From positions 62,001 to 126,000 of the forward strand of contig CALXRI010000001.1 of the NCBI GenBank assembly GCA_944390795.1: a stretch of DNA of 64,000 nt, in the 5' to 3' direction. Below are positions 9,790 through 36,541 of this stretch, in pieces. Source of the DNA: an uncultured Victivallales bacterium. Lineage in GTDB: Bacteria; Verrucomicrobiota; Lentisphaeria; Victivallales; UBA1829. The position numbers and the translations under genes were made by a program. The stretch's first letter is position 1, and each line of letters starts with the position of its first letter. Below the pieces are notes generated by a model. That model had not been told where the DNA came from. It searched no databases and worked only from the letters and a program-made list of their open reading frames with translations.

Positions 9790-11622
9790 ATGAACCGCGC
9801 ATTCCGTGACAGACTCGCATTTCTTCCCAGGGCGTTTCTGCTGTTTCTCACAGCGCTTCTGCCGCTGAAGTTCGCCTCCACGGTCGGAGTTCCGGAAATG
9901 CCGATGATCTACTGGAACAATTTCACCGGGATTCTCATCGGCTCCTGGTCTGCCATGCTGTTTCCGGCCTTCTCGGCGTTCGCACTGATTCTCTGCATCC
10001 TGCTGATGCCGCCGCCCGCGGTGCGGAACACGCTTCTGCGCGGATACGCTCTCCTGTGGGCGCTTCTCGCCGCCGCCTCTCTTCCGGGCTGGATCCATGC
10101 CTCCACCTGGGATTTCGCCGCGCAGAACACGGTCTACTGCTTCGGTCTCGGCTGTTATGCGGCGGCGCTCTGCCTGATGCTGGAGCGCGATCCGGAACAT
10201 TTTGCGCGGCAGCTATTCGCGGCGGTTCTCACCGGGGCGGTTCTGTCCGTTTATTCCGCCTTGAACCAGTATTGGAGCGGTTTCGAAGACACACGCCGAT
10301 TCATTGAGGAAAAAGAGCGCGCGACCGGACAGCGGATCCTGACCGGACAGTTCGCCACCAGGCTGCTGGAATCCCGCGTTTCCGGCGATTTCGCCGTCTG
10401 CAACGTCTACGCAGGTTATCTTGCCATGGTGTTTCCGCTGATTCTCGCGTTCCTGTACAAGCTCGGCGGAAAAGTCGAACAGCCATGGGCCGCGCGTCTG
10501 ATTCTCTGCGCACCCGCCGCGCTGCTCTATCTTTTCCTGCTCAAGGAAACAGGCAGCCGCGGCGGCGTCCTCGCGCTGATCGCCGGAATCGCCTTTGTGA
10601 TTCCCCTGTTCCGAATGCCGGGAAAACTCCGGATCTTCTGTTATGCGCTGATTCCCGTCATGCTCGCGGGATTCATCGTCATGGTGAAATTCTGGCGCGG
10701 ATTCAAATCCATGCTCTTCCGTTTCGATTATTTCAAAGCGGCCTTTGAAATGATGCTGGCGCACCCGTTCTCCGGCGCGGGATGGGGGGAATTTTTTCAT
10801 GAATACCTGCTTTACAAGGATCTGATCAACGACGAGGCGCCGCACGGTCCGCACAATTTTATTCTCGCGCTCGGATCACAGGCAGGAATATGCACATTCC
10901 TGCTAGCCGCAGTTCTCCTTCTGCTCCCGTGTTCCGTCGCGCTTTTCATCTTTTACCGGACATTGCGGACAGACGGAAATCCCGGCGATAAAATCATGCA
11001 GTGCGGCATGACGCTCGGCATCGTCTCATGGACGGTTCACGCGATGATCGAACTGGATTATGAAACCCCCGGCGCCGCGGCGAGTGCGATCGCCCTTGGT
11101 TCTCTGATTCTTGCATGGAAGGAAACGAATCAATTTTTGAAACTTCCAGTTCCCCGGACGCAGCAGGGAGAAAGGGCGTTCAAGATGCTGTTTCTTCTGA
11201 TCTCCGCGGGCCTGATTCTGTATCCGGGACTGAAACTGCCGCAGATTGTTGCCGCGGAAATGGCTTACGAACGGCTTCATTCCGCCACGGATGCCCGGTT
11301 CGGAACGCCGCGCACGGCAGGAAATCCGGTCATGCCCGACGATGTTGCGAGGATGCTTCGCGAGTGTATCCGGATTGCGCCGCAGTCGCCCTTCCCCTAT
11401 GCGGCGGCCTCAAGCTATTATCTCGCGCTCGGACCGCTCTATGCCGGAGAAGGAATTTCCCTGCTGGACGAAGCCATCCGGCGCGCGCCGAAACGCGCAG
11501 GCTACCATTACAGGAAATATCGGATCCTCCGGCAGTTGCCGCACCGGGCCGCGGAGGCGGCGGACGCATTGAAAAAAGCGCAGGAGCTGTCCCCGAAAAA
11601 TCCGGAATATTTCAGTGAATGA
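9790..11622 (+). CDS. O-antigen ligase-like polytopic membrane protein with C-terminal TPR-like part
   Basis: A 610-aa integral membrane protein with about ten hydrophobic segments between residues 12 and 470. The central loop GAGWGEFFHEYLLYKD followed by HGPHNFILALGSQAGI matches the Wzy/WaaL (O-antigen ligase/polymerase) signature, in which a conserved His-containing loop precedes a membrane helix. The last roughly 100 residues (IRIAPQSPFPYAAASSYYLA ... APKRAGYHYRKYRILRQL ... ALKKAQELSPKNPEYFSE) look like tetratricopeptide helices. Likely role: polymerisation or attachment of a surface polysaccharide. No glycosyltransferases are near, so the substrate cannot be inferred. It ends 4 bases before the stop of the convergent gene. 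Confidence 0.75.
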   Translation: MNRAFRDRLAFLPRAFLLFLTALLPLKFASTVGVPEMPMIYWNNFTGILIGSWSAMLFPAFSAFALILCILLMPPPAVRNTLLRGYALLWALLAAASLPGWIHASTWDFAAQNTVYCFGLGCYAAALCLMLERDPEHFARQLFAAVLTGAVLSVYSALNQYWSGFEDTRRFIEEKERATGQRILTGQFATRLLESRVSGDFAVCNVYAGYLAMVFPLILAFLYKLGGKVEQPWAARLILCAPAALLYLFLLKETGSRGGVLALIAGIAFVIPLFRMPGKLRIFCYALIPVMLAGFIVMVKFWRGFKSMLFRFDYFKAAFEMMLAHPFSGAGWGEFFHEYLLYKDLINDEAPHGPHNFILALGSQAGICTFLLAAVLLLLPCSVALFIFYRTLRTDGNPGDKIMQCGMTLGIVSWTVHAMIELDYETPGAAASAIALGSLILAWKETNQFLKLPVPRTQQGERAFKMLFLLISAGLILYPGLKLPQIVAAEMAYERLHSATDARFGTPRTAGNPVMPDDVARMLRECIRIAPQSPFPYAAASSYYLALGPLYAGEGISLLDEAIRRAPKRAGYHYRKYRILRQLPHRAAEAADALKKAQELSPKNPEYFSE

Positions 11623-24235: not shown

Positions 24236-25060
24236 ATGTCATATTCCAATGAGAAGAACGAACCGGAGCAAATACGGCAATCCCGGTTTTCCGTCCGGAA
24301 CTTTCTGGCGTCCTCTCATCCCCAGCGATACGGGAAAGGAACATTTTTCACATTGATCGAGCTTCTCATCGTGATTGCGATCATCGCCATCCTGGCGTCG
24401 CTCCTCCTGCCCGCGCTGAATATGGCAAGGGAAAAAGCGAAAGCCGCCGCCTGCACCAGTAAATTGAAGCAGATCGGATTCGGAATCAACTGCTACACTT
24501 CCGATTACCGGGAATATTTCCCTCCCGGAAAAATGGGGTTGCATCAGTGGATGATTCTGCTTTATCCCTATGTAAAAAACGATTGCGGCGACGCCGTCCG
24601 CGGCTTTCGGAAATTCTCTCAGAATACAATCTGGCACTGTCCTTCGACGGCAAACCCCGAAACAGAACAGCCGGCCAGAATCAGCTATGGATATAACGTT
24701 ATGCTGTTCGGCGGGAATGACTATGATCCAAACCCCTGGCAGACCGCCGTGACGCCCCCGATCAAGGCCGCGCAGATCAAGCATCCCTCCCGGCAGCTGA
24801 TTGTCTGCGACACCTGGTTGACCAATACGTCGCTGAATGGACGGAGCAGCGGATATTATATCCTGGAGGCCGCCTCCAATTTCGCCCTGCGCCATTCCCG
24901 GAGGTGCAATGTCGCCTATTTCGGCGGAAATGTGAATCCCGAGGATGTCTACCGGACCATCTGGACGCATCCCTGCTATTATCCTGTCAACTGTCATCTG
25001 AACGACAGGGAAATGTATTACAGCAACGGCATCACCAAACCGGAGTTTTCCCCTTATTAA
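24236..25060 (+). CDS. Pseudopilin-like protein, H-x9-GG variant
   Basis: 274 aa. A long leader (about 37 residues, [20 protein letters not shown]) precedes [20 protein letters not shown], then [20 protein letters not shown]. Glu at position 5 is present but the residue before the helix is Phe, not Gly. The C-terminal motif reads [12 protein letters not shown], an H-x9-GG version of the H-x9-DG motif. Start ATG 24236 is 4 bases after the GH3 stop, with AAAGGAG overlapping that stop. Together with the protein at 19096 it shows a pattern of one pseudopilin per carbohydrate operon. Role unknown; no prepilin peptidase or secretion ATPase is in the window. Confidence 0.85.
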
Positions 25061-25087
25061 AACCATAACAGCCATGGAGACAGATCT

Positions 25088-26113
25088 ATGAAAAAACTGT
25101 TTTTTGCCGCCGCTCTCGCCGGCAGCATTTTCCACATGGAGGCCGATGCCCTGAAGATTCAGCCGGACATTCTTGACACGGGAAAAACCGTAACAGTCGC
25201 ATTGACGCTCGATAATCCGGCGGATTCGGCCCGTCTGGAACTCCGCGCCTATCAGCGTCCCTTCCAGCTGAACGGATCCGACCGGATCGCGCTGAAACCT
25301 TCCGCGGACGGAAAAACATTTCAGACACAGTTCCCTGCGGAAACCTTTTACCATCCTGTCTATGCGACGGGGAAAAACAACGGGGGAGGCGCGCTGGAAG
25401 CCGTTCCGGTCGTCGTCCGGAACGGCGCGGAAGTCCGCCTGAAAGCGGAAAAGCCGTGGAAACTGATCCGCACTTTCCCCCTCCCGATGAAAGCCAACGC
25501 GGTGAAAGGCTGCGCGGGAAAATTCGGCAGGGGACTCGCCTTCGACGGAAAGGACGCCATGGCGGCGGTCAACCGGATGCGTTTCCATGCGGACAGAGGC
25601 ACAATCGAAGGCTGGTTCTTCCTTCCGCTTCTCCTGAAGAAAAGCTCCTCCATCCTCTGTTTCATCCAAAGCGCGGACGGTTCCCCGTGGCGCTATCACC
25701 AGCTCTCGGTTCCGGCGAATTCGCGCAAGGTGCAGTACCTGACCTACAACGGACAGCCCAAGGACGCTGTCAGCGTCATCACGTCAAAGGAGATCGCCTC
25801 CGAGGACTGGATTCACATTATGGCGACCTACGATCTTTCCGCAAAGAAGATGGAGCTCTTCATCAACGGCGAAAGTCAGGGAAGCGCCCCCTACACGGTC
25901 CCGTGCGGAGGCAGGACCGCCGACCTGAATATCGGCGCGCGCATTCACAACAAGGGAAACACCTATCAGTTTATCGGCGGATGCCAGATGATGCTTGACG
26001 ATCTGCGCATCTCCGACACGGTCCGTCCGGCGGCAATGCCGGAAAAGGCTCTGGCAAATGATGCGAACACGCTTCTGCTGCTCGGATGCGACGGCGCGGA
26101 TGTGATGAGATAA
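25088..26113 (+). CDS. Secreted LamG/concanavalin-like lectin-domain protein
   Basis: 341 aa with signal peptide (MKKLFFAAALAGSIFHMEADA). An N-terminal Ig-like beta domain (about 22-115) is followed by a LamG-type jelly roll: RGTIEGWFFLPLL, EDWIHIMATYDLSAKKMELF with INGESQ, TADLNIGARIH, and MLDDLRISDTVRPA. These strands are typical of LamG domains that bind or accompany carbohydrate substrates. It lies between a pseudopilin and a DUF4838 gene in one operon; the gap to the next gene is 13 bases. Confidence 0.85.
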   Translation: MKKLFFAAALAGSIFHMEADALKIQPDILDTGKTVTVALTLDNPADSARLELRAYQRPFQLNGSDRIALKPSADGKTFQTQFPAETFYHPVYATGKNNGGGALEAVPVVVRNGAEVRLKAEKPWKLIRTFPLPMKANAVKGCAGKFGRGLAFDGKDAMAAVNRMRFHADRGTIEGWFFLPLLLKKSSSILCFIQSADGSPWRYHQLSVPANSRKVQYLTYNGQPKDAVSVITSKEIASEDWIHIMATYDLSAKKMELFINGESQGSAPYTVPCGGRTADLNIGARIHNKGNTYQFIGGCQMMLDDLRISDTVRPAAMPEKALANDANTLLLLGCDGADVMR

Positions 26114-26126
26114 TGAGGTTTCGAGA

Positions 26127-28598
26127 ATGAAATACGCATTTCCCGCACTTCTGATTCCGCTTCTCGGCGTTCTCCTCTTCCCGGCGCATGCGCTCGAAAA
26201 GATCACGCTTGTCCGGGACGGGAAGGCGCAGTCTGCCATCATCCTTTCCAGGCGTCCGACCTCGACGGCGCAGTTCAGCGCAATGGAACTCAATCATCAC
26301 ATCCGCCTGATATCCGGCGCCGAACTCCCGATTGTGAAAGAAGGGGACGCGTTCCGCGGATTCGGGATCTATGTGGGAGAGACGGATTTCGCCAGGAAAA
26401 ACGGGTTCCGCCCCGAGGATTTTCAGATGGAGGAATCGCAGATCAAATTCACGCCCGACGCCATGATTCTGATCGGGCGCGATGCGCGGGCATTCGGCAG
26501 ACCCGTTCCCGGAAGCATGGCAAATGTTCCCTCTCTCTACTGTTACAACAAGGGAACCCTGTATGCGACATACGACTTTCTGGAACGCTACCTCGGCGTC
26601 CGCTGGTATGCTCCGACCGATGCCGGAACCGCATGGATTCCCAGGAAGACCATTGAAATCATCCCGAAGGATCTCCGGCGGAAACCAGCCATGTCCGCTT
26701 TCCGTCACGCCTGGCTGCCGAAAATCCTGATGGAGCGCGGCAAGGAGTTCAGCAAGTATGACTGCGATCTTCTGAAACTGCGCTGGCGCCAGGCAATCAA
26801 TTACGGCTACTGCAATCACAACGTCTACAGCATCTGGTACCGCTACTGGGGCCGGGCGAAAGATCCGGAAAAGGCGAAATATTTCATTGAAAAACGTCCG
26901 CAGTACTTCGCGCAGGGCTACAGGGGAAAAAGCGCCCGGCATCTGATCGGGCTCCGCTCCCAGTATCCGGACGATCCCGATCTGCCGCCCCAGCTCTGCA
27001 ATTCGAACGAGGAGGTCATCCGCTTCTTCGCTGACGAGGCCGCCGCGAAATACGAGGGTTCCGGTGAACGCGGTCTGGGAATGAACATTGCGAAAGCGCC
27101 GGGACTTCCCTGGTATTATCCGATCGAACCGGACGACAACAACGGATTCTGCCTCTGTCCGGAATGTCTTGCACAGTTCAGGGAGAAGCGCGTCAGCGGC
27201 GAGCGTCCAACCAGCTACATCCACTTCAACTGGATCAGCCGGATTGCGCGCGAGGCGGCAAAACGCAATCCCGAAATCAACATTGTCACGCTGGCCTACA
27301 ACAACACGTTGACATATCCGGCGGGACTTGACATCGCTCCGAACGTCGGCATTCAAATGTGTCTCACTCCCTATGACTTCTGGGTCAGTTATGACGGTTC
27401 CGCAAAAAAATATCAGGAGTGGATCGACAATGGCGAAGCGAAGAAACGCATGATGACGATCTGGACTTACATGTTTTCCGGAGCCTGGTATGCCGTGCGC
27501 ATCGATAAAAATCAATACTTCTTCCCGATGTTCGCGCCGGAACACACGGCGAAGCTCTTCCGGAAATTCGCGGCGGACGGCATTCAGGGCTGGTTCGGCG
27601 AAACACCAGATGAAATCGGAGTTCCCTTCTGGCATACGCAGCTGGAGACTTATCTGGCCCATAAGCTCGCAGACGATCCGGCGCTGGACCCCGAACGGCT
27701 GATCGGCGAATTCTTCCGCCTCTATTACGGAAGCGCGGCGGAACCGATGCGGAACTTCTACCGTCTGGTGGAAGACGCCGCATGGGAAAAATCCCTCTAC
27801 GGAAGCGGCAGCAAGGTGATTGATGAAGCCTTCAACTGGGGAAAAATCGGCACGAAGGAACGCATGGAAGCACTGGCCGGATACATTGCACAGGCCCGGC
27901 GCCTCGTAAAATCCCCTGTGGAAAAACAGCGCCTCGCCTGGTTCGTTGACGGAGTCTGGAAGCCCATGCTGGCGGGGCGGGCCGGCTATGACAGGAAACA
28001 GCAGTTCCGCTCCCGTCCCGCACCCGAGGCAAAGGCGTTCCGTGTCGCCGATGCCTCCGGCGATCCAGCCAAGGTCGACTGGACACGAATTCCAGCCCTT
28101 CGCCCGTTCAGGACAATTTCAGGCTTTCCAGGCGGATCGGGCAGGGAATTGAAGTGCGCCCATGACGGAACGTTCCTCTATCTCGTCTTCACGGAAAAGG
28201 GAGATGCGTCAAAGTTGCGGAACGCACCCGATCTCTGGAGCGGGGACGGAATCGAATTCCTGATTTCAGGAACACGGGCGCGCCCCTATGCGCAATATGC
28301 TGTGAATCCGGGCGGAAAAAGCGCGATGATCGGCTATTACTATGAGAACATGGTCACATATTCCCATGCCCTGAACAGCCGGGCCGTCCTCCGGAGCACC
28401 GTGACGGAAAACGGATGGCGTGTTGCATGTGCGATTCCGCTGGACGAGATTCCGCCGGAGAAAACGGCACGCCCGGGAAACGCCTTCTATTTCAACTTCT
28501 TCCGCACGATCCCCGGAATGGTGTCGCTGGCATGGAGCCCGACCTACACGAACTCCTACCACGAACTGGAGAGAATGGGGAAAATAACGCTGGAATGA
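26127..28598 (+). CDS. DUF4838 secreted protein with C-terminal CBM9/DOMON-like domain
   Basis: 823 aa with signal peptide (MKYAFPALLIPLLGVLLFPAHA). The N-terminal domain (about 25-145) resembles alpha-glucuronidase/GH20-type N-terminal domains (STAQFSAMELNHHIRLISGA, GTLYATYDFLERYLGVRWYA). The central DUF4838 barrel carries NNGFCLCPECLAQF with the CxCxxC signature. The last roughly 180 residues are a carbohydrate-binding beta-sandwich of CBM9 type (KCAHDGTFLYLVFTEKG, LWSGDGIEFLIS, GWRVACAIPLDEI). DUF4838 proteins are common in carbohydrate loci of Bacteroidetes and Lentisphaerae and are thought to be glycosidases, but the activity is not established. Last gene of the GH3 operon. Confidence 0.85.
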   Translation: MKYAFPALLIPLLGVLLFPAHALEKITLVRDGKAQSAIILSRRPTSTAQFSAMELNHHIRLISGAELPIVKEGDAFRGFGIYVGETDFARKNGFRPEDFQMEESQIKFTPDAMILIGRDARAFGRPVPGSMANVPSLYCYNKGTLYATYDFLERYLGVRWYAPTDAGTAWIPRKTIEIIPKDLRRKPAMSAFRHAWLPKILMERGKEFSKYDCDLLKLRWRQAINYGYCNHNVYSIWYRYWGRAKDPEKAKYFIEKRPQYFAQGYRGKSARHLIGLRSQYPDDPDLPPQLCNSNEEVIRFFADEAAAKYEGSGERGLGMNIAKAPGLPWYYPIEPDDNNGFCLCPECLAQFREKRVSGERPTSYIHFNWISRIAREAAKRNPEINIVTLAYNNTLTYPAGLDIAPNVGIQMCLTPYDFWVSYDGSAKKYQEWIDNGEAKKRMMTIWTYMFSGAWYAVRIDKNQYFFPMFAPEHTAKLFRKFAADGIQGWFGETPDEIGVPFWHTQLETYLAHKLADDPALDPERLIGEFFRLYYGSAAEPMRNFYRLVEDAAWEKSLYGSGSKVIDEAFNWGKIGTKERMEALAGYIAQARRLVKSPVEKQRLAWFVDGVWKPMLAGRAGYDRKQQFRSRPAPEAKAFRVADASGDPAKVDWTRIPALRPFRTISGFPGGSGRELKCAHDGTFLYLVFTEKGDASKLRNAPDLWSGDGIEFLISGTRARPYAQYAVNPGGKSAMIGYYYENMVTYSHALNSRAVLRSTVTENGWRVACAIPLDEIPPEKTARPGNAFYFNFFRTIPGMVSLAWSPTYTNSYHELERMGKITLE

Positions 28599-28930: not shown

Positions 28931-29941
28931 ATGATTACAATCAAAGACGTTGCGGCCCGGGCGGGAGTCCCGGAAAAAACGGCGATGCGCGCGCTTTCCG
29001 GCGCCACCATGGGGAAAAGGCGCGACGCCCGGGAAAGGATGGAGCGGGTCCGCAGGGCCGCTGCGGAGCTCGGCTATCAGCCGTCCGAAATTGCAAAAGC
29101 GCTGCGGAAAGGAAAAACCCGGACCATCGGGCTGATGACCGGCAACATTACGAACCGCTATTACGCCTCTCTGGCGGAAACCGTGCTGGACGAGTCGGAA
29201 CGTCTCGGCTACCGCATGATTCTGGAACTGACGCGCTGGGATGCGGAAAAAAGCATCCTCTGTCTGGAACATCTGCAGCGCTTCCGGGTGGACGGGATTT
29301 TCTACGCCTCGGGACACTTTCCGGAAGAGCGCCATGCGCTGGAAAAACTGCACGGTGCTGGGATTCCGCTGGTCATGCTGTATCAGAACGCCTTCGGCAT
29401 CGCCTCCGTCGGACGGGATCACTCCGCATCCCTGCCGCTTGCCGTCAGAGACCTGGCGGAACGGGGCGCCCGGAAGATCACGCTGTCCGCCTGGAACAGC
29501 CGGACGCCGCAGGATGAAATCCTCATTGAGCTTTTCCTGAGCGCATGCCGCAAATCCGGAATAGCGTCCGAGCTGCACCGCCCGCGTTCCCTGGCCGACA
29601 TGGATGCGCTGGCGGATGCCGCTCCCGGGGCATTGATCTGCGATGCGCCGAACTGTCTCAAATACTTCTTTCTCCGAATCCGGGACAACCATGCGTACTG
29701 TCCTTATGTCACAGGTATTTATGACGAATGGAACTGGCCGGACCGTCCGGAATCGCTTTCCGGCGCGATCCTGCTGCCGTCCGAGAAACAGGTTCGCCTG
29801 GCGGTCCGCGAACTGATCGGGCAAATTGAGCATGGAAGTCCCCCTTCCTCCATATCTCTGCAGTCACGCTTTTTCCCCTGTGAAAAGTTCGATGAAGTTC
29901 CGGTGAAAGATCTCTCATTCCGTCATCTGTTTCCGTTCTGA
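28931..29941 (+). CDS. LacI-family transcriptional regulator
   Basis: 336 aa. N-terminal LacI helix-turn-helix MITIKDVAARAGVPEKTAMR, hinge helix region GYQPSEIAKALRKGKTRTIG, then a periplasmic-binding-protein-like sensor (GLMTGNITNRYYASLAETVL, DGIFYASGHFPEE, RDLAERGARKITLSAW). The length is typical. The gene has its own promoter with a palindrome over the -35 and precedes the U32-like/QueG-like/glycosidase genes in the same direction, so it probably controls them. The sugar effector cannot be told. Confidence 0.93.
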   Translation: MITIKDVAARAGVPEKTAMRALSGATMGKRRDARERMERVRRAAAELGYQPSEIAKALRKGKTRTIGLMTGNITNRYYASLAETVLDESERLGYRMILELTRWDAEKSILCLEHLQRFRVDGIFYASGHFPEERHALEKLHGAGIPLVMLYQNAFGIASVGRDHSASLPLAVRDLAERGARKITLSAWNSRTPQDEILIELFLSACRKSGIASELHRPRSLADMDALADAAPGALICDAPNCLKYFFLRIRDNHAYCPYVTGIYDEWNWPDRPESLSGAILLPSEKQVRLAVRELIGQIEHGSPPSSISLQSRFFPCEKFDEVPVKDLSFRHLFPF

Positions 29942-30055: not shown

Positions 30056-31102
30056 ATGCGTTTCATGGCGGGATATCCGGTGCAGACCGGAGAAAATTTC
30101 ATCCCTTTCATCCTGAAGCACAAGAACAGGATTCAGGAGGTCTATTTCTCCTGGCCTGGCATCACCTCCGGACGCGGTTCGGCCGGATATGGGAACCCGC
30201 TGATGGAAAATGAGATGCAGAATACGCTCCTGACCGGGCTCTCCCGTCTCCGCAGCGAAGGTGTTGCAAGCTGCCTTCTTCTGAACGGACATTGTTACGG
30301 ACGGGAAAGTCTCGCCCGTGTTTTTTTTGAGAAAATCGGCAATCTCATTGATTTTCTGAAAACGGAAACTGTTCTGTCTTCGATTACCACATCTTCTCCG
30401 GTCATCGCAAAATTCCTGAAACGGAATTTTCCGGATCTGGAATGCCGTGCCTCGGTCAATATGGAGATCGGCTCCGCGGAGGGAATGGACTACCTTGCAG
30501 AGTGGTTTGACGGGTATTACATGCGGAGAGAGCTGAACCGCGATCTTGAGAAAATCCGGGAACTCCGTTCCTGGTGTCTGCGGAACGGAAAAAAGCTCTA
30601 TGCGCTGGCGAACAGCGGATGCCTGAACTTCTGTTCCGCACATAATTTCCACGACAATCTGACCGCGCATGAAAATGAAATCCGCGCAATGGACAACGCG
30701 TATGACTTCCCCGGAATCTGCCGCCAGTGGCTGATGCGCCCGGAAAAGCGGGAACGCTTCCTTTCCGTCTGCAACTTCATCCGTCCGGAGGACATCCGCC
30801 TTTACGAGGAATATTTCGACGGAATCAAGCTGGCGACCCGCGTCAGCCGGAATCCGCTCGGCATTCTGTCCGCCTACCTGAAAGGAAAATACACCGGCAG
30901 TCTGCCGGATCTTCTCGAGCCCTGCCATATGGAATGCTTTCTTCCGGAAATTCTGGAGAATTCCCTTCTGCCGGCGGATTTCGGGGAACGCGTGCTCCGG
31001 TGCGGGCATCGCTGTGAAGCGTGCACATACTGCCGCGACGCCCTCAGGCACGCGCTGGTGAATGCAGACAACTGGCATCAGGCACAGGAAACAGGGAGGT
31101 GA
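30056..31102 (+). CDS. U32-peptidase-like protein with C-terminal cysteine cluster
   Basis: 348 aa, soluble. The fold pattern and cysteine placement recall the U32 family (YhbU/YhbV-like): ASVNMEIGSAEGMDYLAEWF as a barrel strand, LANSGCLNFCSAHNFHDN, then CGHRCEACTYCRDA at the C terminus. Those cysteines could hold an iron-sulphur cluster. Most U32 proteins studied act in tRNA hydroxylation or ubiquinone hydroxylation rather than proteolysis, so no protease activity is claimed. TATAAT at 30020-30025 and AGGAGG at 30035-30040 precede the start. The stop lies 1 base before the next start, which implies tight coupling with the QueG-like protein. Confidence 0.6.
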   Translation: MRFMAGYPVQTGENFIPFILKHKNRIQEVYFSWPGITSGRGSAGYGNPLMENEMQNTLLTGLSRLRSEGVASCLLLNGHCYGRESLARVFFEKIGNLIDFLKTETVLSSITTSSPVIAKFLKRNFPDLECRASVNMEIGSAEGMDYLAEWFDGYYMRRELNRDLEKIRELRSWCLRNGKKLYALANSGCLNFCSAHNFHDNLTAHENEIRAMDNAYDFPGICRQWLMRPEKRERFLSVCNFIRPEDIRLYEEYFDGIKLATRVSRNPLGILSAYLKGKYTGSLPDLLEPCHMECFLPEILENSLLPADFGERVLRCGHRCEACTYCRDALRHALVNADNWHQAQETGR

Positions 31103-31103
31103 C

Positions 31104-32171
31104 ATGCTTACAAGCAGAATGGTGAAGGAGGCCGCGCTTGCCGCGGGCGCGGACCTGGTCGGAATCGGGAACATGGCGCGTTTCGAAGGAGTTCCTCCGG
31201 AAATGGATCCCCGGCGGATCTTTCCCGAGGCGGAAAGCGTCGTCGGAATGGCGTTCCGGATTCCGCGCGGCGTCCAGCAGGGAATTGAACAGGGGACGCA
31301 GTTCTACCAGTATCCCTCCATGGCCTACGGGGGAATCAATGAGATTTTCGCACCCGCGGTTCTGTATCATGTCGGAAAAGTGATTGAAGATCATGGATAC
31401 GAGGCGGTCGTCTACCGGAACACCGGCGCCAGGGGCGCGGTCTCCGACATGGACGGCTCTCCCGGAAACACGCTGTCGCCCGAGGAGCAGATTGAAGTCA
31501 ACGAGCAGGAGAAAAACAAAACCGCGCATCACCGCTCCGTCCAGTTCACCCGTCCCGTGCGGCCGGGAGGCGTCGGACCGGATCTCCAGTTCCATTTCCG
31601 CCTGGCGGCGGTTGCGTGCGGACTGGGGGAAATCGGCTGGAGCAAGATGTTTCTCACGCCCGAATTCGGTCCCCTCCAGCGTGTCGCGTTTCTTTTCACG
31701 GACGCCCCGCTGGAACCGGATCCTCTCTATTCCGGGCCGCCGATCTGCCGCCGGTGCATGGCGTGCGTGAGGGAATGTCCGGGACAATGCCTGAGCAAAG
31801 ACAAAAGCATCACAGTATACGTCGGAGGCAAGAAGTGCGAATGGGGCGTGCTGGATGAATGGAAATGTTATGCGTTTTACACGCACGGCGGACGCAGGTT
31901 CAATCCGTTTGTCCCGCGGGAGGTCTGGGATGCCAATGAAAACGGGGATCTGAACCTTCTGGAAGGGAAATGCGCGGCCACGGAAGCGGAAATCGTGAAA
32001 GTCTACGGCGCGCTGGAAAAATATTTCCCGTCGTGGGTCGGCTACAATATGGCGAAATGCGGCGGATGCATCCGCGCCTGCGTCGGCATGCTGGAAAAGA
32101 AAGGCGGATGCATGGAACACCGCTTCCGCCGTCCGCTGCGCACCGGCAGGGCATGGATCATGGACAGATAG
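31104..32171 (+). CDS. QueG-like double [4Fe-4S] protein, copy 1
   Basis: 355 aa from ATG 31104, chosen because GGGAGGTGAC lies directly upstream; an earlier in-frame ATG at 31062 would overlap the preceding gene. The N-terminal part (LAAGADLVGIGNMARFEGVP; VVGMAFRIPRG) is shared with epoxyqueuosine reductase (QueG) and reductive-dehalogenase-like proteins. Cluster motifs: CRRCMACVRECPGQCL, and CGGCIRACVG near the C terminus. A segment DEWKCYAFYTHGGRRFNPF lies between them, and its form W-x-C-x3-Y ... NPF recurs in the two copies at 32182-34029. True QueG roles in tRNA modification are not implied; cobalamin binding cannot be judged. Probably an electron-transfer or reductase protein of an unknown pathway. 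Confidence 0.75.
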   Translation: MLTSRMVKEAALAAGADLVGIGNMARFEGVPPEMDPRRIFPEAESVVGMAFRIPRGVQQGIEQGTQFYQYPSMAYGGINEIFAPAVLYHVGKVIEDHGYEAVVYRNTGARGAVSDMDGSPGNTLSPEEQIEVNEQEKNKTAHHRSVQFTRPVRPGGVGPDLQFHFRLAAVACGLGEIGWSKMFLTPEFGPLQRVAFLFTDAPLEPDPLYSGPPICRRCMACVRECPGQCLSKDKSITVYVGGKKCEWGVLDEWKCYAFYTHGGRRFNPFVPREVWDANENGDLNLLEGKCAATEAEIVKVYGALEKYFPSWVGYNMAKCGGCIRACVGMLEKKGGCMEHRFRRPLRTGRAWIMDR

Positions 32172-32181
32172 GAGGAAGCCG

Positions 32182-34029
32182 ATGCTCTCAGCACAAATCA
32201 TCAAGAGAAAAGCTCTGGAATACGGCGCGGATCTGGTCGGCATCGGGGATGTCCGGCACTTTGAAGGCACGTCTCCGCAGCGCGATCCCCGCAGCATCCT
32301 GCCCGATGCATCCTGCGTGATCGGATTCGGATTCCGCGTGCCGCGCGCCCTCTACCGCGCCATGGAAAGAAAGGTGCAGTATTTCAACTACACCCAGCTC
32401 GGCGTCAAACAGATCGACGAGGAGCTCTCGGAAGTGTTTCTTCTGAAAATGGGCGCCCTGATTGAAAACGAGGGGTATGACGCCTGTCTGCAGCGCAACG
32501 TTTCAAATCTGAGAATCAAAGGCGATCACTCCACCAATCCGGAAGTCTCCGACACATATGAACTGGAACATGCCGAAGCGGTCGCGCCGGGGAAGACCGT
32601 TCCCGATGTCATCCTGGATTTCGCGGACGCCGCGCGCATCTGCGGACTGGCCTCCGTCAGCTGCAAAGGCAATGCCATCGCCCCGAAACTCGGGCCGTTT
32701 GTCCGCTTTGTCTTTCTCGTGACCAATGCGCCGCTGGAAACCGATCCGCCTTTCGCGGGCTCGATCTGCGACCGCTGCGGGAAATGCGCGGAAGCGTGCC
32801 CGGGGCACGCCGTGGACGTCCGGAACGGGCTGGACACCTGGCAATGCGCCGTCTACTACCGGGGGGCGCACCGCTCCAATCCCTTCATGAACGCGGATTT
32901 CCTGAAGGATCATCCCGCACGGGAGCAGATCCTGAACGGGGATTACCGTTTCACCAGGGAGAGTGCGCGAGCCATCTATCCGGAGCTGAATTTCCTTCCG
33001 ATGCGCGCCACGGGTTACGCTCCCTGCCTCTGCGGAAAACTGTGCGATATCGCCTGTTACAATCATTTGAAGGAAAAAAAAACTGCTATGAACACGCTCA
33101 GACAGAAAATCATCGACCGCTTCCGCCTCTTCGGCGCGGATCTGGTCCGCTTCGGGAACGCCGAACGCTTCCGCGATCCGAAAGTCCGTCTGCTGATGCC
33201 GGAAGTCCGGACCGTGATCTGCGCGGCATTCCGCCAGCTCCGCGGCGTCCGGCGCGGAATTGAAGAGGGCTCCACATACTACCAGTATACCACCAACGGC
33301 ATTGAAGTGCTGGAGGAAAATGTGATGCCGAACGCGCTGCTCAGGGTGTCCGCCCTGCTGGAGGAGGAGGGCTTTGAAGCGCTCCCCCAGCGGCGCAACC
33401 AGACCGTCATGCAGACAGAGGACGGCACCAATTTCGAAGTGGACTACCGGGAGATTTTCCGGGGCAGGAAAGCCGAAAACCAGCTGGATTTTGAACAGTG
33501 CGCCATTGACTGCGGCCTCGGGGAGCGCGGTCTTTCCGGATCGATTCTCACCGATGCGTTCGGACCGTGTCAGCGCTGGGTCTTCCTGCTGACCGATGCG
33601 GAAATCGAACCCGATCCGGTTGCGGAGCCGCACCTCTGCGACCGCTGCGGGAAATGCATTGCGGCCTGCCCCGGACGGGCTCTGAGTCCGGAGGGAGAAC
33701 GCGATCCCTGGCAGTGCTCGGCCTATTACATCGGCGCCAACATGACGAAAAACCCATTCCTGCCGCCGGAGGCGTTTGCGGACGATCCGGAGCGGCAGGC
33801 CGTCATCACCGGGGCGGTCAGGCTTTCGCCGGAGCGCGCCCGGGAGATCATCGACCGGATCATCTATTACCCGCCGGTCAAGCACAGTTACCAGGCAAGC
33901 ATCTGCGGGCGCGCCTGCGACACCGCGTGTCTCATTCACCTGGAGGAAAGGGGGGTATTGACGCACAAATTCAAAACAACGTTCAGGAAACGCCCCGAAT
34001 GGAAACTGTCCCTTCTCGATCCGGTTTGA
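32182..34029 (+). CDS. Tandem-fused QueG-like [4Fe-4S] protein (copies 2 and 3)
   Basis: 615 aa made of two homologous halves, residues 1-302 and 303-615. Each starts with the same motif (EYGADLVGIGDVRHFEGTSP; LFGADLVRFGNAERFRDP). Each has CDRCGKCAEACPG or CDRCGKCIAACPG, then W-Q-C-A-V-Y-Y-R-G-A or W-Q-C-S-A-Y-Y-I-G-A followed by NPF. Each ends with a second cysteine set (CLCGKLCDIACYNHLKEK; CGRACDTACLIHLEERG). The halves are joined at an A9 run (33074-33082). With one A fewer the first half would stop at TGA overlapping the ATG at 33088 (ATGA). So the fusion may be real, may be a slippage site, or may be a sequence error. Follows copy 1 by 10 bases with GGAGGAA before ATG. Confidence 0.75.
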   Translation: MLSAQIIKRKALEYGADLVGIGDVRHFEGTSPQRDPRSILPDASCVIGFGFRVPRALYRAMERKVQYFNYTQLGVKQIDEELSEVFLLKMGALIENEGYDACLQRNVSNLRIKGDHSTNPEVSDTYELEHAEAVAPGKTVPDVILDFADAARICGLASVSCKGNAIAPKLGPFVRFVFLVTNAPLETDPPFAGSICDRCGKCAEACPGHAVDVRNGLDTWQCAVYYRGAHRSNPFMNADFLKDHPAREQILNGDYRFTRESARAIYPELNFLPMRATGYAPCLCGKLCDIACYNHLKEKKTAMNTLRQKIIDRFRLFGADLVRFGNAERFRDPKVRLLMPEVRTVICAAFRQLRGVRRGIEEGSTYYQYTTNGIEVLEENVMPNALLRVSALLEEEGFEALPQRRNQTVMQTEDGTNFEVDYREIFRGRKAENQLDFEQCAIDCGLGERGLSGSILTDAFGPCQRWVFLLTDAEIEPDPVAEPHLCDRCGKCIAACPGRALSPEGERDPWQCSAYYIGANMTKNPFLPPEAFADDPERQAVITGAVRLSPERAREIIDRIIYYPPVKHSYQASICGRACDTACLIHLEERGVLTHKFKTTFRKRPEWKLSLLDPV

Positions 34030-34183
34030 GGAAACGGACGGGAAAACACGGGAAATCCCCGGGCGCGAAAGAGGAAAGCAAGTTGCAATTTCCTTCCGCA
34101 GACGTAACTTACAGGAAGGAAACGGGAAAAAAACGGAACACGCCGCATTTCCTGCATCAACATATCGGAATACGGAGAAGAAC

Positions 34184-36541
34184 ATGTCAGCAGAAAACAT
34201 GGAAAATCCCCTGATCCCCATGGGGGCGATCACAGGCAGGCCGTCCGCCGCCTTTCTCAGAGAAACGCTTCAGGCGTGGCGCGATGTCGGCGTCACACAG
34301 TTTCTGATTTACCCGCGGAGCGGATGCGAACTGGAATACATGTCGGAGGAGTGGCTTGACACCTGCGGGGAAATCTGCGACGCAGCGGAACAGCTCGGGT
34401 TCACGTCTCTCTGGCTGTATGACGAATACAACTGGCCGAGCGGCACCTGCGCACGCCGTATCCTGGAGGAAAATCCGTCCAACGCCCTTCCCATGCTCAG
34501 CGTGTTCCGGAACGGGGAACAGTATGAATTCACGATCCGCCGCAGCTCTCTGATGAGCAATCTCTTCTCCTCCGAAGTCGTCGGGCGCTTTCTGGAACTC
34601 ACGCACGCACGCTATGAAAAACGGCTCGGAAAATATATGGGACGGCTCATCAAGGGCTTTTTCACGGATGAACCCGACATTTCCTTCTTCGACAGCTGCG
34701 AACACCGGGAGGATCTGATCCGGATTCCCTGGTATGAGGGAATGGAGGAGGAATACCGCCGCAAAACAGGCGGGGAACTGCGGGCGGACATCCTGAGAGG
34801 CCTGGCGACCGGAAGCCGTCCCTATGAGGAGGTCTGCCACCGCCTGTGCGCCGAAAAATTCCGGACCGCTTTTGCGGAACGGATCTCAAACTGGTGCGCG
34901 GCGCGCGGCATGGTTCTCACAGGGCATCTGATGAGTGAATATTCGGCGGCGGGCGCCCTCCGGTGCAACGGGCATCCGCTTGAAGTGCTGAGCGCCTTCT
35001 CCCTGCCGGGAATGGACGAGATTTTCACCCACGGAACCACGGGAACCATTGAATGGCTCACTTTGGGAACCGTCATGCATGCGATTGAAAAGCGGGGCAA
35101 CCGGGGAGGACTGGCCGAACTCTTCGCACTCGGTCCCTGCGACATGACGCTGGAACGGATGCGCAGGCAGATCTGGCTTTGCGCCGCATTCGGCGTCAGC
35201 CGCTACGTTCTGGCCGTGTCGGCCCTGACCATGCACGGCAATCTGGAAAAACCGCTCTACTTCAACCCGCTGACCCGGACGCAGCCATGGTTTCCCGCAT
35301 TCCGGGAACTGGGGGAGGATGCGAAACGCGCCGCGGAATTCGCGGGGAAAAAGCGGGTTCCCGCAATTGCCGTGCGATATCCCTACGTCGCCGAACCGCT
35401 GACCGACCTGCTCAAGTATCTGACCGCCGCGCAGTTTTCCTGGAGCCTGATCCTGCCGGAAGAGGAAAGTGATGCGGAAATCATTCTCTCCCTGCATGAC
35501 GGAATGCTGCGGGAAGAACGTTCGGGACGGGAATTTTTCGACGGATGGTGTCTGGAGCAGGAACTGCTTTCGAAACTCCCGCGGGAATGCCGCGCGCTGG
35601 AAAACGATCGGACGGCGCAGGATGTGTTCCTCCGCGCCTTTGAAGACGGAAGCGCAGTTGTCATCAATCTTTCGGAATGCGACAGGGAACTTGTCCTCCG
35701 CCGGAAGGGAAAAGCGGATCTTCCGTTCCATCTGCCGGGAACCGGCGTCAGAGTTTTCGACGGAACGGAAGAACCCTCCTTCGGAGACGGAATTGCGGAA
35801 ATTCTCCTGAAGGAAAATCCGCTCCCGGAATCCGCAAACACCCGCCGCGCCGAATTCCGGGACGGAATCTTTGCGTTTTCCCTGAAGGACAATCTGGAAA
35901 ACCTGACGCTGATCGTCCGCAACTACGGCGACATCCCTGAAATTTTTCTGGACGGAAAGAGGCTTTTCCCCCATACCCCCTGCGGAAATCTTCCCCGGGG
36001 ATTCCGGGAGCTGTATCTGGAAACGGCCCCCTTTTCCCTTGCCCGGGGAGAGCACAAACTCATACTGGGAAATCACGCAAAAGACTATCCTTACCTGCCT
36101 CTCGCGTTCCTTGCCGGAAATTTCTTTCAGACACGCGGGGGGGAGCTCTGCAGAGACCCGGCGGCCGGCCTTTACGGGTATGCGGGGCGCATCGTCCAGA
36201 CGGAGCGGATTGCAATCCCCTCCCGCGCGGAATTCCTGGAACTGGATCCGCAGGGACTGTGCACCGAAATATTTCTGAACGGAAAAACGCTCGGCAGACG
36301 CCTCTGGAAACCGTTTCTATGGAAAATCCCGGAACAGCTGCGGGGACGGGAAACGGAACTGAAAATCATCCGCAGCACCTCGTGCGGCCCTCTGTTCGGG
36401 GAAAAGGCTTTCGAGCCGGGAGGGGACGCCTGGCTGACAAGCTTCCGCCCGCGGAACGACAAGGCCCCCGGGCGGATCTCAAGCATCACCTTCCGGGACG
36501 GGCGCCATTCCTCTTCCCGCTCTTCGCGGGAAAACGCCTGA
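34184..36541 (+). CDS. Large glycoside hydrolase (GH106/GH2-related TIM barrel with beta-sandwich)
   Basis: 785 aa, no signal peptide. The N terminus follows the pattern of GH106-like enzymes: DVGVTQFLIYPRSGCELEYM, then EWLDTCGEICDAAEQLG, then SLWLYDEYNWPSGTCARRI. Other likely active-site strands are KGFFTDEPDISFFD and GMVLTGHLMSEYSAAG. The C-terminal part (after about residue 540) is a GH2-type sugar-binding sandwich (NLTLIVRNYGDIPEIFLDGK; YAGRIVQTERIAIP; EIFLNGKTLGRRLWKPFLW). Substrate is unknown; alpha-L-rhamnosides are typical of GH106. It follows the QueG-like genes by 154 bases and may belong to the LacI-controlled group. Confidence 0.75.
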   Translation: MSAENMENPLIPMGAITGRPSAAFLRETLQAWRDVGVTQFLIYPRSGCELEYMSEEWLDTCGEICDAAEQLGFTSLWLYDEYNWPSGTCARRILEENPSNALPMLSVFRNGEQYEFTIRRSSLMSNLFSSEVVGRFLELTHARYEKRLGKYMGRLIKGFFTDEPDISFFDSCEHREDLIRIPWYEGMEEEYRRKTGGELRADILRGLATGSRPYEEVCHRLCAEKFRTAFAERISNWCAARGMVLTGHLMSEYSAAGALRCNGHPLEVLSAFSLPGMDEIFTHGTTGTIEWLTLGTVMHAIEKRGNRGGLAELFALGPCDMTLERMRRQIWLCAAFGVSRYVLAVSALTMHGNLEKPLYFNPLTRTQPWFPAFRELGEDAKRAAEFAGKKRVPAIAVRYPYVAEPLTDLLKYLTAAQFSWSLILPEEESDAEIILSLHDGMLREERSGREFFDGWCLEQELLSKLPRECRALENDRTAQDVFLRAFEDGSAVVINLSECDRELVLRRKGKADLPFHLPGTGVRVFDGTEEPSFGDGIAEILLKENPLPESANTRRAEFRDGIFAFSLKDNLENLTLIVRNYGDIPEIFLDGKRLFPHTPCGNLPRGFRELYLETAPFSLARGEHKLILGNHAKDYPYLPLAFLAGNFFQTRGGELCRDPAAGLYGYAGRIVQTERIAIPSRAEFLELDPQGLCTEIFLNGKTLGRRLWKPFLWKIPEQLRGRETELKIIRSTSCGPLFGEKAFEPGGDAWLTSFRPRNDKAPGRISSITFRDGRHSSSRSSRENA

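Follow-up and report, generated by a model that had tools for sequence, protein, structure and literature searches.

In the literature that we searched, only two activities of class III cobamide enzymes are described, those of QueG and RdhA, and the characterised U32 oxidases have RNA and ubiquinone as their sole substrates. Here we analyse a locus at which relatives of both kinds of protein are joined. It lies in a 64,000-nt stretch of the genome of an uncultured Victivallales bacterium (contig CALXRI010000001.1, positions 62,001 to 126,000; "the window", whose first nucleotide is position 1). Between 28931 and 36541, the forward strand encodes a LacI-type regulator, a U32-like protein, a QueG-like module (M1), an open reading frame (ORF) comprising two further modules (M2 and M3), and a large glycosidase-like protein; this is the same-strand run that an initial annotation, made from the letters alone, had reported.

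The conserved core consists of four genes, i.e. those for the U32-fold protein, M1, M2 and M3. We interpret this core, with moderate confidence, as an anaerobic redox cassette under the control of sugar-type regulators; M1, with M2 and M3, would be a cobamide-type reductase that works alongside a U32 iron-sulfur protein on a carbohydrate-derived substrate. Our search of the open literature, which did not extend to most subscription papers, yielded no account of the cassette. The initial annotation had proposed an undescribed, conserved group of a U32-like gene and three modules of the QueG/RdhA type, distinct from QueG and in a sugar-regulated setting, and this proposal is borne out.

Conservation and linkage of the four core genes

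The source genome contains a single copy of the cassette. A scan of 84,980 genomes yielded 533 relatives, of which the best 80 M1 loci from named genomes were compared. The alignments comprised 81 M1, 79 M2 and 73 M3 sequences as well as 72 sequences of the U32-like protein, and a survey of the phylum covered 388 genomes. In this survey, M1 is present in about 30 genomes with identities of 73-90%, distributed over many families and more than one class. In most of these genomes, M2 and M3 follow M1 and the U32-like gene lies beside it. The 80 loci come from distantly related anaerobes of at least three phyla: Lentisphaerota, Verrucomicrobiota (Opitutales), Planctomycetota (one Planctomycetia bin) and many Clostridia.

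The order M1, M2, M3 was found in all 77 loci with a long enough contig, and the U32-like gene lies next to the modules in about 71 of 78. The mean pairwise identity is 79% for M1 (81 loci, across phyla), the best-conserved gene, 63% for M2, 59% for M3, and 50% for the U32-like protein. In the phylogenetic tree the modules form three separate clades, each with full support (100/100 for M2 and for M3), and M1 groups with a simpler single-module form. The existence of one clade per module indicates that the triplication preceded the spread of the cassette. Its presence is patchy within genera. Neither scattered, solitary homologues nor a queG-type tRNA context, which the initial annotation had named as contrary findings, were encountered for the three-module form.

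The U32-like gene extends from 30056 to 31102 and M1 from 31104 to 32171. The M1 ORF is open from 31062, but the ATG at 31104, with a GGAGGTG ribosome site just 5′ of it, is the most likely start. M2 (32182-33087) and M3 (33088-34029) form a single ORF in the window, whereas nearly all relatives have two genes with overlapping stop and start codons. A run of nine A residues (A9) at 33074-33082, compared with A7T in the nearest relative (L072), contains an extra base that puts both modules in one frame, so that the fusion in the window may be a homopolymer or read error. A genuine M2-M3 fusion at another locus (L120) is a hint that M2 and M3 touch each other.

Many Clostridia have a conserved protein of about 120 residues between M1 and M2, and a few have it after M3. 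It has no Pfam match and appears cupin-like by eye (L118, 14251-14619; the same type in L105, L117 and L129 at about 11070-11440). At the locus of Oligosphaera ethanolica DSM 24202 (L080), which has M1, M2 and M3, an Acido-Lenti-1 RNA (Rfam RF01687; 9390-9454) lies just upstream of M1, and the adjacent U32-like gene is missing.

At strong scores, U32-like and QueG-like genes are both present in 64 genomes of the phylum, 1 and 4 genomes have only one or the other, and 307 have neither. The respective values at the genus level are 37 with both, 1 and 3 with one, and 150 with neither. The thresholds were set after the scores had been seen, and related genomes are not independent, a point that the genus count partly answers. 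Because of these pairings, a functional link between the two proteins is very likely; they may also form a physical complex.

The simpler form consists of one module and a U32-like gene, with or without an IclR regulator. In some genomes two modules are separated from the U32-like gene: tandem pairs of modules without an adjacent U32-like gene occur at L058 (4190-6189), L059 (8327-10293) and L071 (180-2179), and these genomes also have a U32-like gene at an unlinked site (L212, L214 and L211). A QueG-type protein of O. ethanolica (L162, 5619-6866), with 131 bits to TIGR00276 (below the cut-off) and a long internal Ala-Ser/Ala-Gly repeat, is close to a pair of a single module and a U32-like gene. 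A more distant set of U32-like proteins stands without modules, with tandem arrays in some genomes. For example, five tandem U32-like genes without QueG-like modules lie beside a methionine synthase (MetH)-like gene at L161 (7795-13797), and three to five copies recur in sister genomes of that genus.

Features of the core proteins

M1, M2 and M3 are homologous, with about 35% identity between modules. Each contains, in this order, the motifs CX2CX2CX3C, W-x-C-x3-Y, NP(F) and CX2CX3C, which in M1 are located at C229 to C239 (31746-31778), W267-x-C269-x3-Y273 ... N281-P282-F283 (31860-31910), and C333, C336 and C340 (32058-32081). The alignments show no or almost no variation at the eight cysteines, the Y and the N-P, in accordance with the initial description of three homologous modules with two cysteine sets each and a W-x-C-x3-Y ... 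NPF segment in between. In all three modules the eight cysteines match the ligands of the two [4Fe-4S] clusters of QueG in order and close spacing (PMC4646009).

The modules belong to the QueG/RdhA superfamily, and by curated cut-offs to neither family. With the QueG model TIGR00276 (cut-off 200 bits), M1 scores 25, M2 and M3 29 each, and the fused ORF 52 bits; with the RdhA model TIGR02486 (cut-off 160 bits), M1 scores 47 and M2+M3 73 bits. RdhA is the best family-model and PDB match, and structures of both RdhA and QueG were matched by sequence. For the B12-domain region of M1, hhalign gave E values of 4.8e-16 for RdhA (residues 19-290) and 1.7e-18 for QueG. A plasmid search had a Sulfurospirillum RdhA as its sole match.

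The residues at the positions of RdhA Asn272 (M1 N120) and Arg305 (M1 R207, 31680-31682) are kept in all 81 M1 sequences. An Arg at the latter position is absent from QueG (PMC4646009, from which the residue roles are taken). The Asn272 position is variable in M2 and mostly Arg in M3, which would fit catalysis by M1, assisted by M2 and M3. The segment from E94 to N120 (31341-31421) starts with a Glu that is invariant in M1 and nearly so in M2 and M3, two residues from the position of the RdhA proton donor Tyr246; a catalytic role of Glu94 would be a guess. An early hidden Markov model alignment had suggested M1 Y84 as the equivalent of Tyr246, but MAFFT and hhalign place the Tyr near position 96, which is variable, and we assign no catalytic Tyr to M1. 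The N-terminal, B12-domain half of M1 is as conserved as the cluster half and has the invariant motifs YRNTGARG and GLGE-G-S...FGP--R, while strong sharing among the three modules is limited to the two-cluster core. Only about 29 residues follow the last cluster cysteine, showing that M1 lacks a C-terminal HEAT domain of the QueG type.

A cytoplasmic enzyme that reductively dehalogenates natural products would be in line with RdhA as the best match and with the retained Asn and Arg. The 47 bits of M1 are far from the cut-off, however, the host has no RdhA over the cut-off, the catalytic Tyr is not conserved, and the neighbouring genes are of the sugar type and not of respiration. We consider this role highly improbable and set it aside on the scores and the missing Tyr.

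The U32-like protein scores 13.1 bits with PF01136, below the gathering score of 22.4, and only 10 of 29 relatives match this family at all. A profile of the protein yielded nothing convincing against PDB sequences, and the fold alone gave a match. For the AF2 model (predicted local distance difference test, pLDDT, 93), the U32 protein MK0906 is by a wide margin the closest structure (Foldseek 1.2e-10; VIA Z 18.8, root-mean-square deviation 3.2 over 223 residues), and the next unrelated barrel in the VIA comparison has a Z of 12.9. The predicted structure thus clearly has the U32 TIM-barrel fold; the U32-like label given initially agrees with the structure, while the Pfam cut-off is not reached. 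Four cysteines (C80, C189, C193 and C222; 30293-30721) with the spacing CXnCX3CX28C are invariant in 72 of 72 sequences and probably represent a [4Fe-4S] site. An extra cysteine-rich C-terminal tail, CX3CX2CX2C (C316, C320, C323 and C326; 31001-31033), is present in about 41 of the 72. Described U32 spacings are CX6CX15CX3/4C, CX6CX16CX38C (UbiU) and CXnCX12CX3C (UbiV) (PMC11574389, PMC6747719); the cassette protein has none of these spacings, the first of which is the U32-oxidase-type motif (PMC6747719).

Genomic context and proposed function

The families of the regulators vary between groups. An AraC-type regulator is near 43 of the 80 loci, mostly divergent and directly upstream, as in most loci of Clostridia. 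LacI is near 9 of the 80 and is common in Lentisphaeria. The LacI-family gene of the window (28931-29941; Pfam LacI 7e-07) is kept beside the cassette in a same-genus relative (L034/L072) with 75% identity, and the IclR regulator goes with the single-module form.

The flanking genes include a Gfo/Idh/MocA oxidoreductase (25 of 80 loci), a DUF5696/GH101-like protein (20 of 80), GH63-like, GH116, GH43 and GH3 proteins, mannitol dehydrogenase, a xylose-isomerase-like barrel, and sugar permeases or transporters; some neighbours are non-carbohydrate genes. Since the flanking kinds vary, we define the unit as the four genes and regard the glycosidase as one among several variable neighbours. The initial annotation had counted LacI and the glycosidase as parts of the unit, which we reject, as relatives have AraC or IclR regulators and other glycosidases in their place.

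The window glycosidase (34184-36541) has no Pfam match, PF17132 (GH106) included, whereas a distant relative matches PF17132 with 4.7e-12. The candidate shares N-terminal barrel motifs with this relative, and thus resembles the GH106 alpha-L-rhamnosidases, from which it differs by its own lack of a Pfam match and its non-core position. It has a GH2-type sugar-binding region near the C-terminus. A GH106-like glycosidase adjoins the cassette in only a few other lineages (L081, L053, L142). Upstream of the LacI gene, the same strand encodes a protein with prepilin-type N-terminal methylation, a laminin-G-like protein and a DUF4838 protein (24236-28598), i.e. a further glycan-use block; DUF4838 relatives are also near the cassette in L072, L078, L080 and L092.

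With QueA and QueH present and no QueG scoring over the cut-off, the host would, judged by its gene content, not need the modules for queuosine synthesis, and a tRNA-epoxide role is unlikely. A queuosine role was set aside on the QueA and QueH genes, the low QueG scores and the missing QueG-type C-terminal domain. More generally, a base in tRNA or rRNA could be the target of the cassette, as both parent families include RNA modifiers (QueG; U32 as TrhP and RlhA) and the very high conservation of M1 would fit an invariant substrate. Against such an RNA-modifying system stand, in addition to the queuosine genes and the missing HEAT domain, the dedicated AraC, LacI and IclR regulators, the glycosidase neighbours, the lack of a tRNA gene within the window, and the patchy distribution; we regard it as quite unlikely.

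A B12-binding_2 (corrinoid-type) protein in a 1300-residue frame suggests that the host probably uses corrinoids. Plant glycans contain methylated sugars, and the modules might serve to activate a corrinoid protein by reduction, for the O-demethylation of such sugars; a RamA-type activase matches weakly (12 bits). The recurring cassette neighbours, however, include neither a methyltransferase nor a corrinoid protein, which makes this activator role very unlikely.

For the redox cassette proposed above, the large set of neighbourhoods would fit a redox step in sugar metabolism, as suggested initially; a role in cofactor metabolism, the second suggestion, received no support. Sugar-type regulators would switch on the four genes, and the products would act together on a carbohydrate-derived substrate. 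M1 would be soluble and would represent a third branch within the QueG/RdhA (class III cobamide) superfamily; electrons would pass via its two [4Fe-4S] clusters to a base-off cobamide. The cleavage that it catalyses would be reductive and would most plausibly break a C-O bond, either by dehydroxylation or by reduction of an epoxide or ether. M2 and M3 would be diverged copies that have kept the clusters and have lost the active-site Asn of M1 wholly or partly, and would therefore relay electrons or have a structural role within a single complex. The TIM barrel of the U32-fold protein would hold a [4Fe-4S] cluster, and this protein would perform, or help with, a paired reaction on that substrate, comparable to U32 oxidases in O2-free hydroxylation. 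In this scheme we infer cobamide binding, the reaction and its direction, the substrate and complex formation. A rather doubtful extension would be a new multi-subunit enzyme that couples cobamide-dependent reduction to U32-type oxygen chemistry, e.g. to take away or shift a hydroxyl group of an unusual sugar in anaerobes, and that has reached different gut and rumen phyla through gene transfer.

Several observations weigh against the proposed redox cassette. M1 sequences carry F, Y, H or L at the Tyr246 position, so that the acid of RdhA and QueG is not conserved. The single-sequence AF2 model of M1 has a pLDDT of 33, so that a cobamide pocket in M1 is hypothetical. The host has no cobalamin riboswitch, and among 33 sequences scanned (32 relative loci and the window) only one has it, so that it was rejected as a hallmark. 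The glycosidases nearby vary too much to indicate a single substrate. Lastly, nearly all genomes are metagenome bins, so that individual taxon assignments may be incorrect; the clostridial sequences, however, fall into separate clades and have a distinct regulator, a pattern that accidental mixing of bins would not yield.

Some of these points would also fit modules that are electron-transfer iron-sulfur proteins without cobamide and deliver low-potential electrons to the U32-fold protein as the sole catalyst: the RdhA Tyr is not conserved, the host lacks a B12 riboswitch, and the strong sharing between modules is confined to the two-cluster core. But the B12-domain half of M1, with its invariant motifs, is conserved like the cluster half, the identity of 79% across phyla is beyond the need of a simple carrier, and M1 keeps the Asn and Arg positions of RdhA. 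Pure electron carriers are thus unlikely in our estimation.

The sole riboswitch case (L117, 14594-15909) has the cobalamin riboswitch directly downstream of the cassette and a Gfo/Idh/MocA gene. It precedes a small lipoprotein-like protein and an ECF-transporter-like membrane protein, with a possible function in B12 uptake.

Comparison with QueG, RdhA and the U32 oxidases

The joining of both kinds of protein, from Lentisphaerota to rumen and gut Clostridia and beside sugar-type regulators, points to an unknown anaerobic chemistry of carbohydrate breakdown, and the cassette offers a concrete four-gene target for expression. Such genes probably carry, at present, the misleading annotations epoxyqueuosine reductase and U32 peptidase.

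The modules share with QueG (TIGR00276; PDB 5d08, 5d6s) the N-terminal B12-domain region and a ferredoxin region with two clusters, whose eight cysteines follow one another in the same order. Unlike QueG, they remain below the cut-off, lack the HEAT domain, and occur in three copies with a U32 partner, in a host that has QueH. In addition, M1 has an Arg at the RdhA Arg305 position and an Asn at the catalytic Asp of QueG (aligned via RdhA Asn272). RdhA (TIGR02486; PceA 4uqu) is closest in sequence in the cluster core, and M1 shares its Asn272 and Arg305 positions, but the modules are again below the cut-off, have no long N-terminal leader region, are variable at the Tyr position, and lie in another genome context. 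The U32-fold protein resembles the U32 oxidases UbiU, UbiV, TrhP and RlhA in its TIM-barrel fold and four invariant cysteines, and differs from them in its score below the Pfam cut-off, its other cysteine spacing, its frequent extra tail, and its tie to QueG-like genes.

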